A stretch of 64,000 nucleotides of DNA from NCBI RefSeq assembly GCF_000328705.1, contig NC_019673.1:4030001-4094000 (forward strand), read 5' to 3'. This document shows, piece after piece, positions 3,915 through 8,012 of the stretch (its first letter is position 1; each line of letters starts with the position of its first letter). Origin of the DNA: Saccharothrix espanaensis DSM 44229 (GTDB taxonomy: Bacteria; Actinomycetota; Actinomycetes; Mycobacteriales; Pseudonocardiaceae). The notes under the pieces were generated by a model that saw only the letters and a list, made by a program, of their open reading frames with translations, was not told where the DNA came from and ran no database searches. A program made the translations under genes and the position numbers.

Positions 3915-4571
3915 TCAGCCGGTGACGTAGCGCCAGTAGTCGGTCAGCAGTTCCGGGACGTTCTCGGCACTGCGGGTGAGCCACTTCTCCGGCTCGCCGC
4001 CGGCCAGGCCGTGCTCGACGACCTCGACCAGCCGTTCCCGCAGCACCGCGGGTTCTTCGGCGTAGTTCTCCAGGTAGGTCACCACCGAGCCGGGCACGTC
4101 GGAGAGCTTGCCCAGCGCGTCGACCAGCTCGGTGGCGACCGGGGCGAACAGCTGGAAGTCGGTGTGCACGGCGAGCGCGGCCTCGGCCGGGCCCGCGTGG
4201 ACGCCCACCCACGTCTCGTTCAGGCTGAACGCCTGCACCGCCGGCGGCTGGTCGGCGGCGCGCAGCTGCTCGGGGTCCAGCCCCACGTCGGCGGCGGCCA
4301 TGTCGGCCAGCAGCCGGCGTTGCGCGGTGAACAGGACCGCCAAGTGGGCGAAGACCGCGGCCGGGACCTCGTGCCGGTGGCGGAGGATGAGGTTGCCGTA
4401 CTTGGACATCTCGGCGTCCTGGGTCAGGAACTCGCCCGCCACGAAGCGGCGCAGCTGCTCCGGGCGGACCTCGCCGGCCCGTGCGGCGGCGAGGAACCCG
4501 TTGGTGTCGACCTGGTCGCGGATCGGCAGTCGGGACTGGTGCTGTTCGATGAGCTCGGTGGCGTTCGCCAC
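3915..4571 (-). CDS. Heme-oxygenase-fold protein (TenA/PqqC/HDO-like)
   Basis: 218 residues, mostly helical. The N-terminal RRFVAGEFLTQDAEM and central LNETWVGVHAG and LAVHTDF segments resemble the heme-oxygenase-like superfamily, which includes TenA, PqqC and the heme-oxygenase-like diiron oxidases. Candidate metal ligands are the Glu and His of ETWVGVH, the His-Asp of VHTDF and the His of VVEHG, but I cannot prove a diiron site by eye. The GTG start has AGGAGG upstream. The gene lies 45 bases downstream of the oxidase-amidohydrolase fusion on the same strand, so it probably acts on that enzyme's product or substrate. Thiaminase or plain structural roles are alternatives. Fold assignment is moderate, function unknown. 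Confidence 0.6.
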   Translation of the reverse strand: MANATELIEQHQSRLPIRDQVDTNGFLAAARAGEVRPEQLRRFVAGEFLTQDAEMSKYGNLILRHRHEVPAAVFAHLAVLFTAQRRLLADMAAADVGLDPEQLRAADQPPAVQAFSLNETWVGVHAGPAEAALAVHTDFQLFAPVATELVDALGKLSDVPGSVVTYLENYAEEPAVLRERLVEVVEHGLAGGEPEKWLTRSAENVPELLTDYWRYVTG

Positions 4572-4616
4572 GGTGTTTCGCCTCCTGTGGTCCGGTGGGA
4601 TCTGGGTTGTGGGGTG

Positions 4617-7601
4617 TCAGGGCCGCGCTGTGCGGACCGCGCCCGCCCGCATCACGAAGTCGACCTCGCCCATGACCGCGATGTCGGCCAGCGGGTCGCC
4701 GGGCACGGCGACCAGGTCCGCGACGGCTCCCGGCCGCACCCGGCCGAGGTCCGGTCGGCGCAGCAGGTCGGCGGCGGCACCGGTGGCCGCGGCGAGCGCG
4801 CGCCCGGGGCTGATGCCGACCCGGGTCATGGCGGTGAACTCGCGCCACGTCTCGCGGTAGGGCACCGGGCAGGCGTCGGTGCCGAAGACGAGCGTGACCT
4901 CGCTGTCCGCCAGGTGGCTCGCGGCGGCCCGCATCGGCTCGGCCAGGGCGCGGAACTTGGCCCGGCGGTAGTCGGGCTGCCCGGCCCAGAACTCGTCGTC
5001 GTCGAGCCGGTCGACGTAGCGGAACACGGCGTGCAGGGTGGGCACCAGGAACACCCCTTGTCGGGCGAGCAGGGCGAAGGTCTCGGGAGTCGCCAGGTTG
5101 GCGTGCTCGACCGAGCGCACACCCGCCCGCACGGACCGGCGGACCGCCTCGTCGTTTAGCGCGTGCACGGCGCACGGCAGACCCAGGTCGGTCGCCGCGG
5201 CGACCAGCGCGTCGATCTCCGACTGGCTGTAGGTCACGGCGGTGGGGTTGTCGACGGGGGAGAGGAAGCCGCCGCCGGCGGCGAACTTGATCCAGTCCGC
5301 GCCGGCCCTGGCCTGGGCGCGCACCCGGTCGACCACCTGCTGCACACCGTCGGCCAGCGTCCCGACGCGCAGGCCGTACCGGCTGGTGAGGACGGGCTCC
5401 CGGTCGCCGTGGCCGCCGCTCGCGGACAGGATGTTGGGCGCGACGACCAGCCGCGGTCCCTCCACGAGCCCGGCGGCCACGGCGTCGCGCAGGTCCACGC
5501 CGGCGGGGTAGTCGCTGGTGCCGAGGTCGCGGACGGTGGTGAACCCGGCCGCGAGCAGGTCGCGCAGGTTGGGCAGCGCCCGCAGCAGTTGCGTGCCGAC
5601 CGGGGCGGTGTTCAGGTCGTCGTCCAGCACGTGCACGTGGCAGTCGATCAGGCCCGGCAGCAGGGTGTGCCCCGCCAGGTCGACGGCGACCGCGTCGGCC
5701 GGCGGTGCCACGTCGGCACCCACCGCCTCCACCCGGCCGTCCCGGACCAGCACCCGGGCCTCCCGGCCCGCGCGCATCCGCTCGCCGTCCCACAGCCGGG
5801 CGGCGGTGACGACCCGGTCGCGGCGGTCGTCCGCGCGGTCGCCGACCTCGACCGCCGGTCGCGGGCGGTCGGGCGCGGTCACCGGCCGGTACCGGTGGTC
5901 GCCCCACACGTCGCCGGGACCCGGGTTGTCGGGCAGGGTCTGGCCACCGAGGCAGCGCAGCACCCCCCAGGCCGCGTTGAGACCGGAGGACAGCGCGTGG
6001 TCGAGCCAGCCGGCCGACCACGAGGTGTCGTCGCCGGCGAGGAACAGCGGGTTCGGCGCCTCGCCCGGTATCGCGGGCTCGCCCGCGAAGTCCTTCATGA
6101 AGTGCGCGAACAGGTCCCACTGGTAGCGGTGCTCGCCGGGCCGGGAGAACCGGCACAGGCCCCGGAAGTTGCGCTCCAGCTCCCAGGAGATCGTGCAGGT
6201 GCTCCCGTCGGCCACCTGCCGGCCCAGCTCCTCGGCCAGGTCGGGGTGCACCCGGCCGAGCTCACGGGTGAGCACCGCGACCCGTTCGTCCAACGTGGAC
6301 GGTGCGATCTTCATGGCGTCCTTGGCCCAGGTGAAGCTCAGCACCAGCACGGCGCGCCGGCCGCCGGGCCCGGCCGGTTCGCCGTAGTCCATCGTGTACG
6401 CCGCCCGCGGCAGCCGGTCGGTGAGGGTGACGCCGTCCATGCTGGTCCCGGCCCAGAACGGGGTGTCGGTCACCAGCGCGGTCTTGGCGGACTGCCAGTA
6501 GCTGAGCCGGCGGATGGCTCGGCGCATCCGGACGCCGAACGGCGCGGCACCGCCGGGACGCAGCGGGCGGACCCCGACCGAGGTCTCCAGCACGTGCAGC
6601 TGCGGGGTGAACACGACCGCCGGGAAGCGCTCCGCCCGGCCGTCCTCGCTGTGCACGACGACACCATCTTCGACCGTCTCGCCGACCTCCAGCAGCGTGA
6701 CCCCCGGCCTGGGCGCACCGTTGTTGACCTCGGCGAGGCTGGTCGGGGTGCCGTCCGGCCCGGTGGTGCGGTGCGCCCAGAACGCCTCGGCCACCGCGCT
6801 GAGCCCCTCGCGCAGGTAGTCCGTGCCGCCGCCCTCGGTGGCCAGCAGCAGGCGGAAGACCTCCAGCACGCCCAGGTCGTGGAAGCTGTCCCAGGCGGCG
6901 GTGCCGACGCCCGCCGTGCCCAGCAGTCGGGCCTCGTCCCAGGTCAACGACGCGCCGTCGGGGTCGCGCAGGAAGCGGTAGTACGTCCAGGGCTCGAAGC
7001 GCGCCACCAACCCGCCCCAGAGCCGGCGGGTCCGGTCGAGGTCACGCGCGGCCACCGCCTCCTGGAGGGCGAAGAGGCCCACCCGGGTCAACGCGGCCCG
7101 CCACCGGGTGTGCGCTCGCCGGAACAGGTCGTCGTCGGTGTAGAGGTCGGTGATCTCGCGGACCGCACGGGTGACGCCGTCGACGTCGAGGACCGTCCAC
7201 GGCGTGGTGCCGGCGGCGTAGTCGTCCCGGAACGGCAGCCAGTGCAGCCCGAACCGGTCGGTGTACTGGCGCAGCAGCTTGGCGGAGTCGGGCACCCGCA
7301 TGCAGCCCAGTTCCACCACGGCGCTGTCGTCGGGTGCCAGCCGCAGCGAGAACATCCGGCCGCCGAGCCGTCGCCCGCCCGGCCCGGCCGCCGAGGTCTC
7401 CGCCTCGTAGACGATCGGCCGGCAGCCGATCCGCAGCAGTTCGTAGGCCGCGGTCAGTCCGCTGCCGCCCGCTCCGATCACCGCGACCGGCGTGCCCAGC
7501 GCCCGTGCGGGCAGCCGGCCGATGCGCCGCTCACCGCTCACGTGGGCCACGTAGTCGAACGGGAAGTCCACCTGGAGGTCGGTGGGCGGCGGTTCGGTCA
7601 C
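4617..7601 (-). CDS. Fusion: flavin amine oxidase + metal-dependent amidohydrolase
   Basis: 994 residues in two enzyme domains. Residues about 37-580 form an L-amino acid oxidase or tryptophan 2-monooxygenase-like flavoprotein, with the dinucleotide motif VIGAGGSGLTAAYEL (41-55), an acidic residue ending strand 2 (YEAE), the GGRMF loop and the ELGCMRVP substrate motif of the RebO/VioA/IaaM group. FLAGDDTSWSAGW marks the C-terminal FAD contact. Residues 597-994 form an amidohydrolase of the imidazolonepropionase/prolidase type with all expected ligands: HVH (655, 657), candidate carboxylated Lys772, His813, His833 and Asp909. Such a pair could oxidise an amino acid to an imine or amide and then hydrolyse it (inference). 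GTG at 7601 follows a perfect AGGAGG. It heads an operon with the heme-oxygenase-fold gene. Confidence 0.85.
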   Translation of the reverse strand: MTEPPPTDLQVDFPFDYVAHVSGERRIGRLPARALGTPVAVIGAGGSGLTAAYELLRIGCRPIVYEAETSAAGPGGRRLGGRMFSLRLAPDDSAVVELGCMRVPDSAKLLRQYTDRFGLHWLPFRDDYAAGTTPWTVLDVDGVTRAVREITDLYTDDDLFRRAHTRWRAALTRVGLFALQEAVAARDLDRTRRLWGGLVARFEPWTYYRFLRDPDGASLTWDEARLLGTAGVGTAAWDSFHDLGVLEVFRLLLATEGGGTDYLREGLSAVAEAFWAHRTTGPDGTPTSLAEVNNGAPRPGVTLLEVGETVEDGVVVHSEDGRAERFPAVVFTPQLHVLETSVGVRPLRPGGAAPFGVRMRRAIRRLSYWQSAKTALVTDTPFWAGTSMDGVTLTDRLPRAAYTMDYGEPAGPGGRRAVLVLSFTWAKDAMKIAPSTLDERVAVLTRELGRVHPDLAEELGRQVADGSTCTISWELERNFRGLCRFSRPGEHRYQWDLFAHFMKDFAGEPAIPGEAPNPLFLAGDDTSWSAGWLDHALSSGLNAAWGVLRCLGGQTLPDNPGPGDVWGDHRYRPVTAPDRPRPAVEVGDRADDRRDRVVTAARLWDGERMRAGREARVLVRDGRVEAVGADVAPPADAVAVDLAGHTLLPGLIDCHVHVLDDDLNTAPVGTQLLRALPNLRDLLAAGFTTVRDLGTSDYPAGVDLRDAVAAGLVEGPRLVVAPNILSASGGHGDREPVLTSRYGLRVGTLADGVQQVVDRVRAQARAGADWIKFAAGGGFLSPVDNPTAVTYSQSEIDALVAAATDLGLPCAVHALNDEAVRRSVRAGVRSVEHANLATPETFALLARQGVFLVPTLHAVFRYVDRLDDDEFWAGQPDYRRAKFRALAEPMRAAASHLADSEVTLVFGTDACPVPYRETWREFTAMTRVGISPGRALAAATGAAADLLRRPDLGRVRPGAVADLVAVPGDPLADIAVMGEVDFVMRAGAVRTARP

Positions 7602-8012
7602 GACTACCTCCTGGGCACGGGCGGGAGGTGAGCGGAATCGCATTCCTGCGGGACGTGAATTCCCGGCAAAAGGCCGCCGGTGTTTCCGGCGGAATGGGGC
7701 GGTGTGGGGGAAGGAATGGCAGAGGTTGTGCTGCGGGTGACCTTACCACCGCTCCGGACGCCGGTCATGAGGCGAAAGTGCGCTATTGCGAAATGAGTCC
7801 GTTTGACCGCCGGGGTCGACCGTTCGGGCTCTGCTCATCACGCACCGTGAATGCCAGGTGATGGCTCATAAATGAATTTCGAAGGCGAGTTCACGGTCGG
7901 CGAGTTCATTGGCGCGCGAAGTCGCCGGAATGACCTCGCCCGACCGCGCCCGGGTGTGGTGGGCGAGCGGGTGGTGTGGTGGGCGTCCCGGTGAGGCGGG
8001 CGGGTGATGAGG
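7602..8012. other. Intergenic region with promoter of the oxidase fusion operon
   Basis: It has a lower GC stretch (about 7700-7900) than its surroundings, which fits a promoter for the leftward fusion operon. The part near 7930-8000 holds imperfect GGTGTGGTGGGCG repeats just after the SWIM gene's stop. No coding sequence or clear terminator is seen. Confidence 0.5.

Follow-up and report, generated by a model that had tools for sequence, protein, structure and literature searches.

The fusion gene and its neighbor

The stretch analyzed here, called the window in the following, comprises 64,000 nucleotides of the genome of Saccharothrix espanaensis DSM 44229 (NC_019673.1, positions 4,030,001 to 4,094,000), a high-GC soil actinobacterium whose genome consists of a single contig of 9,360,653 bases. 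On its reverse strand the window carries a gene in which a flavin-dependent amino acid oxidase and an amidohydrolase are encoded as one polypeptide, followed by a gene for a small protein with a predicted heme-oxygenase fold, in the following termed HO. The features of the locus are:

4617..7601, (-): 994-residue fusion of an FAD amino acid oxidase/monooxygenase half and an amidohydrolase half (open reading frame, Pfam)
5847..7601, (-): oxidase half, residues 1-585, with a GAGGSG motif at residue 43 (PF01593, alignment)
4620..5846, (-): linker (roughly residues 574-597) and amidohydrolase half, within residues 586-994
4572..4616, (-): 45-bp intergenic gap with an AGGAGG resembling a ribosome-binding site, ahead of the HO start
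3915..4571, (-): HO, 218-residue protein of the heme-oxygenase/TenA-type fold (predicted fold)

The reading frame of the fusion (4617-7601) is open for 994 codons from a GTG at 7601. Read from an alternative ATG at 7643, in the same frame, it would have 1008 codons, but the GTG start is preferred because an AGGAGG immediately precedes it. In a Pfam scan the Amino_oxidase domain (PF01593) covers residues 47-548 (E 9.4e-34) and the Amidohydro_1 domain (PF01979) residues 646-988 (E 3.6e-37). A first-pass annotation, made from the sequence alone, had described the protein as an IaaM/VioA-type flavoprotein joined to a hydrolase unrelated to IaaH, and this description is borne out. Both domains are complete, the full-length PF01593 match and the GAGGSG motif place the flavin half in the oxidase/2-monooxygenase family, and the hydrolase half matched PF01979 while no amidase-signature family was found in the Pfam scan.

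The fusion is present as a single frame in five further genomes, with 63-82% identity to the window protein: S. algeriensis (82%), G015 (71%), Actinokineospora spheciospongiae (71%), G182 (68%) and Actinomadura terrae (63%). Because these five share the same continuous frame with the window, the fusion is genuine, and a frameshift or annotation artefact as its source is ruled out. Among the fusions the linker varies in length while both flanking domains are well conserved in the alignment, which suggests that the linker is a tether between the halves. The earlier proposal that an imine or amide could be passed from one active site to the other is unsupported, as the full-chain structure model is weak (25-row alignment; pLDDT 71.5, pTM 0.47, linker residues 573-592 below pLDDT 50) and, with a linker of variable length, silent on channeling. 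At a pTM of 0.47 the model likewise gives no support to active sites that directly face each other. Among plasmid records, 325 match the fusion, none of them over 80% of its length, and no match to HO was found.

The HO reading frame lies on the strand of the fusion, 45 bp past its stop codon, and the two genes look like a two-gene operon. Strand and spacing agree with the previous claim that both genes are transcribed together; the shared transcript itself we infer from the spacing. When simple patterns for promoters and terminators were looked for, none was found.

Fused and split forms

Counting each gene once, 17 genes for oxidases of this clade were found at 16 loci in 15 genomes. Six are fused to the hydrolase and ten have it as a separate neighboring gene; the remaining one, the second copy of S. 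algeriensis (L027/L080), has none. In the hydrolase tree the six fused members and one split member (S. tamanrassetensis) form one group with a support of 99/99, and the oxidase tree does not resolve the fused ones as a single group. The trees are compatible with a single joining and later separation as well as with repeated joining.

When GTDB genomes were scanned with the fusion alignment, the search relied on two short peptides that both belong to the oxidase half, so that its recall is limited, and it missed the loci of G786, G896, G1123, G015 and G182. Neighboring genes were called by a simple composition-based script; genes that it overlooked, namely the oxidase of L082, the hydrolase of L029 and the ligases (see below) of L078, L100 and L103, were recovered otherwise.

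In four Streptomyces loci the hydrolase is C-terminally fused to a heme-oxygenase-fold domain (L083:9779-11749, the locus L083/L101; L084:9560-11743; L103:6501-8444; L104:3591-5534). The hydrolase frame of S. monomycini (L082:9753-11024) appears broken in its record.

The substrate pocket of the oxidase half is altered

Among solved structures, the flavin half is most closely related to the L-amino acid oxidase/monooxygenase L-AAO/MOG (3we0; residues 5-567, E 2.6e-83), followed by tryptophan 2-monooxygenase (4iv9; residues 11-560, E 3.5e-32). According to the sections of PMC5832979 used here, Asp238 of L-AAO/MOG lies at the terminal amine of the substrate, Arg102 and Tyr416 lie at its amino/carboxyl end, Phe473 and Trp516 form an aromatic cage, and Cys254 is tied to the balance between oxidase and monooxygenase activity. 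The same sections report that monooxygenation was undetectable after exchange of Cys254 to Ile, and that exchange of Asp238 to Phe (D238F) brought new activity toward Leu, Met, Phe, Ala and cadaverine.

The pocket was compared in 16 of the 17 known clade oxidases, with S. monomycini (L082) left out; row L008 (wrong frame or strand) is not among these 16 rows. The active-site positions of the window protein are R102, W237, F240, E256, F423, W425, C483, G531 and W532. Arg102, Trp235, Trp418 and Trp516 of L-AAO/MOG are retained in all 16 rows. Asp238 is replaced by Phe in 15 rows and by Leu in one (window F240), Tyr416 by Phe in 15 and kept in one (window F423), Phe473 by Cys in 13 and by Ser in three (window C483), Cys254 by Glu in 15 and by Gln in one, and Ala515 is Gly throughout. 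At least three of four pocket positions are unlike L-AAO/MOG in every row, and the Asp, Tyr and Phe are retained in two outgroup oxidases of the same bacterial family. By sequence the window protein is kin to L-AAO/MOG and tryptophan 2-monooxygenase, but its active site is of another type, with Tyr416 and the cage residue Phe473 lost and only the cage Trp left. A specificity for basic amino acids as in L-AAO/MOG was rejected, since Asp238 is lost in all 16 rows, and judging from the alignment the substrate of the clade should not be assumed to be lysine, tryptophan or phenylalanine.

HO has a predicted heme-oxygenase-like fold but neither the usual diiron ligand set nor a Cys

In sequence searches HO gave nothing above cut-off in Pfam, NCBIfam or the PDB (best DUF4936, E 0.051; PDB, E 0.38), neither Pfam nor NCBIfam listed the TenA family (TENA/THI-4) among matches with E up to 0.1, and PDB sequence searches with the profiles of HO and of the ligase returned chance-looking matches only. 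The AlphaFold2 model (pLDDT 97.5, pTM 0.92), in contrast to the sequence, finds clear counterparts and confirms the heme-oxygenase-like fold that had been suspected at first: it matches TenA (2gm8; Z 21.4, rmsd 2.7, 206 aligned) and CADD (8vag; Z 20.1, rmsd 2.7, 208 aligned), at about 10-14% identity in the top rows. UndA, HrmI and BesC are matched as well.

Twelve residues are invariant in 16 HO rows (N24, E47, Q51, E54, Y58, R64, H67, E68, W121, D138, E193 and W213), and E130 is nearly so. In 21 core rows E47, E54, H67, E68, D138 and E193 are invariant, H67 being the only invariant His (the next His columns have H in 15 and 13 rows), and in 30 rows that include distant homologues E54, D138, P160 and W213 remain. 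Heme oxygenase has a proximal His; column 20 of HO, a possible counterpart, is Q in the window protein and H in 13 of 21 rows. In Cys-type TenA thiaminases the nucleophile is a Cys, and the 218 residues of HO contain none, so that this assignment was rejected; TenA-type proteins without the Cys exist (TenA_E), in which a catalytic Glu replaces it, and by its fold HO could be one of these. A plain TenA lacking conserved partners, the counter-case raised in the first-pass annotation, is not what was found: HO has no Cys, no TenA family match and a conserved co-occurrence with the oxidase, described below.

The same annotation had considered a diiron oxidase. That HO is a heme-oxygenase-fold dimetal oxidase (HDO) of the same pathway appears very unlikely. 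Its predicted fold does match CADD, UndA, HrmI and BesC, and a metal site of a different layout, formed by E47, E54, E68, E130, D138, E193 and H67, is conceivable. However, the part of PMC13108848 used here gives three His plus three carboxylates (3H/3C) as the ligand set of most HDOs, besides which it names 3H/4C and mononuclear variants, and among the 21 core rows H67 stands alone as an invariant His. In addition, most of the conserved acids are placed, by approximate numbering, on helices 37-64 and 128-153, which form the pocket in TenA. The canonical diiron oxidase, with a 3H/3C or 3H/4C set, was therefore rejected. Because both the usual ligand set and the Cys are missing, HO belongs neither with the canonical diiron oxidases nor with the Cys-type thiaminases. 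It probably binds or rearranges a substrate or product in a TenA-like pocket that would hold no diiron center.

HO is linked to the oxidase, but not strictly

The HO gene lies near the oxidase in eight of ten loci from the GTDB scan. The exceptions are Actinomadura terrae, whose genome encodes more distant HO homologues at other sites (E 3e-35 and 2e-23), and Amycolatopsis coloradensis, in whose genome no HO homologue was found at E 1e-8. Among 390 genomes of the window's family, six have both genes, one the oxidase only, one HO only (G023, where the HO match is a fragment) and 382 neither, so that clade oxidase and core HO each occur in 7/390. The oxidase cut was 1093 bits or more (next-best match 398), and the core HO limit of E 1e-39 was chosen after the list had been inspected; the co-occurrence (Fisher p 1e-11) ignores shared descent and depends on this post hoc limit. 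An HO homologue of some kind is present in 23/390 genomes at E 1e-10. The conserved third gene anticipated earlier is thus seen both in the scan loci and in the family.

Two counts speak against tight linkage. Only 8 of the 11 core HO matches in the family have the oxidase in their locus, the others being L028 (alone) and L032 (beside a decarboxylase), both of G006, and the G023 fragment; and of the nine Streptomyces genomes (among 392) with HO at E 1e-30, the stretch read contains the oxidase in five. G786, G896 and G1123 entered the set of 16 oxidase loci through HO searches, so these three do not count as independent evidence of the linkage. The link between HO and the oxidase is conserved but not strict.

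A gene for a LuxR-type (GerE) regulator adjoins HO in two Saccharothrix loci (L026:7173-7808 and L029:11487-11927). In S. tamanrassetensis the module has a rifampin-monooxygenase-like neighbor (L029:12215-13768; NF033145, 831 bits, cut-off 800).

The hydrolase half and the genes that accompany it

In the metal amidohydrolase superfamily the ligand set is HxH, Lys, His, His and Asp. The corresponding positions H655, H657, K772, H813, H833 and D909 are all present in the window protein and kept in 22 of 22 aligned rows. PDB matches of the hydrolase half include 2qs8, 3mkv, 3mtw and 3be7/3dug; its relatives include dipeptidases, arginine carboxypeptidases and prolidase-like and ochratoxin-type hydrolases. 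Some related entries bear the name imidazolonepropionase, and molinate and phenylurea hydrolases are more distant kin. For 2QS8, 3MKV, 3MTW, 3DUG and the fungal ochratoxinase, the portion of PMC11342369 used here describes release of the C-terminal amino acid. In NCBIfam the fusion scores 284.6 bits against XaaProDiPepCaul (cut-off 500). By sequence the hydrolase half is kin to the carboxypeptidase-type amidohydrolases.

At three loci without an oxidase (L030, L031 and L038) hydrolases of the subfamily, with 51-63% identity, stand beside a histidine-decarboxylase-like gene. In L030 the two genes overlap by 4 bp, and in L038 a predicted 102-aa reading frame lies between them; in two of the three genomes, G020 and G005, no oxidase was found at E 1e-80. 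The decarboxylase also lies tail to tail with the fusion in L025, L072 and L073. It passes NCBIfam PRK02769 in all three cases scanned (350.7, 314.6 and 312.8 bits, cut-off 305). It occurs in 8 of 18 genomes that carry module genes versus 0 of 7 controls of the same genera (p 0.04), and in seven of these eight it is beside the hydrolase, the fusion or HO.

A further gene, encoding a GCS2-like protein of 494-552 residues, lies between HO and the oxidase in nine of the 16 oxidase loci. By its similarity we assign it, with moderate confidence, as a carboxylate-amine ligase. It stands beside HO in L106, where no oxidase is in the stretch read. The HO gene of L106 (L106:9719-10365) is split over two frames beside the intact ligase gene. 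General paralogues of the ligase are present in all 20 genomes searched, in the window genome as L134 and L135 (G000:C1:551483 and 7110362), far from the fusion. Two paralogues that were scanned gave weak glutamate-cysteine ligase and EgtA matches far below the NCBIfam cut-offs, and the group looks like a widespread family without a clear name.

Distant HO homologues occur in a second gene set of varying make-up (L037, L040, L041, L074, L083/L102, L084, L107 and L108). It includes an adenylation-PCP-thioester-reductase protein, in several cases with a C-terminal HO domain, a FAD amine-oxidase-like protein of about 410 residues, and HisF-like and zinc-dehydrogenase/quinone-reductase-like proteins. 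In S. californicus the set adjoins the oxidase module. The window genome has a copy (L037, 6589-9889; G000:C1:about 5965700) with HO, amine oxidase and HisF-like genes, and with an adenylation-reductase match that is only partial in the stretches read.

Proposed order of the steps

We favor, though tentatively, a two-gene module that processes one amino acid, with the hydrolase acting first and the oxidase second. This order is preferred because the characterized relatives of the hydrolase free amino acids and because the hydrolase pairs with a decarboxylase. The amidohydrolase half would most likely cleave an amide (a dipeptide, a gamma-peptide or an N-acyl amino acid) to a free L-amino acid, perhaps histidine or a similar one, which the tethered flavin half would then oxidize at the alpha carbon. 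The product would be an imino or keto acid plus H2O2, or an amide formed by decarboxylating oxygenation. Since oxidase and decarboxylase both consume alpha-amino acids, the hydrolase may be their common supplier. In the related loci the GCS2-like ligase may make the amide, as a ligase together with an amide hydrolase suggests that an amide is made and broken there, and the histidine-decarboxylase-like enzyme may replace or accompany the oxidase in using the freed amino acid.

The reverse order, implied by the first-pass annotation, in which the flavin half makes an amide one carbon shorter that the hydrolase converts to an acid and ammonia, as in IaaM/IaaH or DavB/DavA, is the main rival and seems somewhat unlikely. 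Both solved flavin relatives are compatible with it, as L-AAO/MOG makes an amide from Lys (PMC5832979, in the sections used) and the next relative is a tryptophan 2-monooxygenase. The gene order fits it too: the oxidase is N-terminal in all six fusions, and the hydrolase gene precedes the oxidase in one split pair only (Amycolatopsis coloradensis, L079). On the other hand, the names of the PDB relatives of the hydrolase, among them 'amide hydrolase' (LlADH) and imidazolonepropionase, include no primary amidase, and the weaker molinate and phenylurea hydrolases are likewise none. The oxidase-free loci with hydrolase and decarboxylase also speak against this order, and so may the Glu or Gln at position 254, given the loss of monooxygenation with Ile in L-AAO/MOG.

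L-amino acid oxidases often have catabolic or antimicrobial roles, and in line with this the two halves might simply scavenge peptides and break them down to keto acids, ammonia and H2O2, outside any dedicated pathway. The Actinomadura terrae fusion (L077), which stands by itself with no other module genes inside the 19 kb read, fits such a role. The rare, clade-specific pocket and the close association with genes for HO, ligase and decarboxylase do not, and we consider scavenging unlikely.

Several points weigh against the hydrolase-first reading itself. The hydrolase gene follows the oxidase in nine of ten split pairs, and the oxidase-first order fits equally well with this. As the clade has Phe at position 238 like the D238F mutant, a hydrophobic amino acid or an amine would, by analogy, be as good a guess as histidine, and with Phe in place of Tyr416 the oxidase may not accept an ordinary free amino acid. 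At E 1e-60 the decarboxylase was missing from 10 of the 18 carriers, among them the window genome, and its histidine-decarboxylase label comes from sequence. GCS2 was matched by two of seven ligases (best E 0.0005), at least one of them below the Pfam cut-off, and in the window genome no clade ligase was found, only the general paralogues.

Comparison with known systems

In the open-licence PMC literature we found neither the fusion, nor the changed pocket, the HO family or their association. This is no proof of absence from print, because only open-licence PMC papers were covered; within that literature the comparison suggests that the parts are of known kinds while the fusion, the pocket and the association with HO appear new. 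Taken together, a single polypeptide here unites two familiar kinds of enzyme and has an altered active site, and its conserved partner is an orphan by sequence. Possibly it belongs to an undescribed amino acid module of exchangeable parts that makes a small molecule, perhaps derived from histidine, in actinobacteria. Such a module would draw on a remodeled flavin oxidase, a carboxypeptidase-type amidohydrolase, a GCS2-like ligase, a histidine-decarboxylase-like enzyme and HO-fold proteins. The latter would then be a new functional class, neither diiron oxidase, heme oxygenase nor thiaminase, that works alone or fused to hydrolases or adenylation-reductase enzymes. If this holds, the heme-oxygenase fold gains a group without the usual catalytic residues, and if the product of the module is a dedicated metabolite, a route to natural products opens in Saccharothrix, Actinokineospora, Streptomyces and their kin.

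With TenA, CADD and other heme-oxygenase-fold proteins HO shares the predicted fold, but it differs by its low identity, by the missing Cys and 3H/3C set and by belonging to no Pfam or NCBIfam family. The flavin half aligns over its whole length with L-AAO/MOG of Pseudomonas sp. AIU 813 and with 4iv9 and keeps the Arg and Trp positions of the former, whereas the clade differs from L-AAO/MOG in Asp238, Tyr416, Phe473 and Cys254 and has a hydrolase joined on. Likewise, the whole hydrolase half aligns with Cc2672 (3mtw), 2qs8, 3mkv, Sgx9359b (3be7/3dug), LlADH (9l2t) and ochratoxinase (4c5y) with shared ligand positions; from the carboxypeptidase-type amidohydrolases it differs by the attached flavin oxidase and by missing the XaaProDiPepCaul cut-off. 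Further parallels are the IaaM/IaaH and DavB/DavA pathways, which likewise pair a flavin monooxygenase-type enzyme with an amide-type hydrolase. IaaH is an amidase-signature hydrolase, whereas the window has a hydrolase of the PF01979 superfamily, fused partners and an extra HO gene, to which its relatives add ligase and decarboxylase genes.

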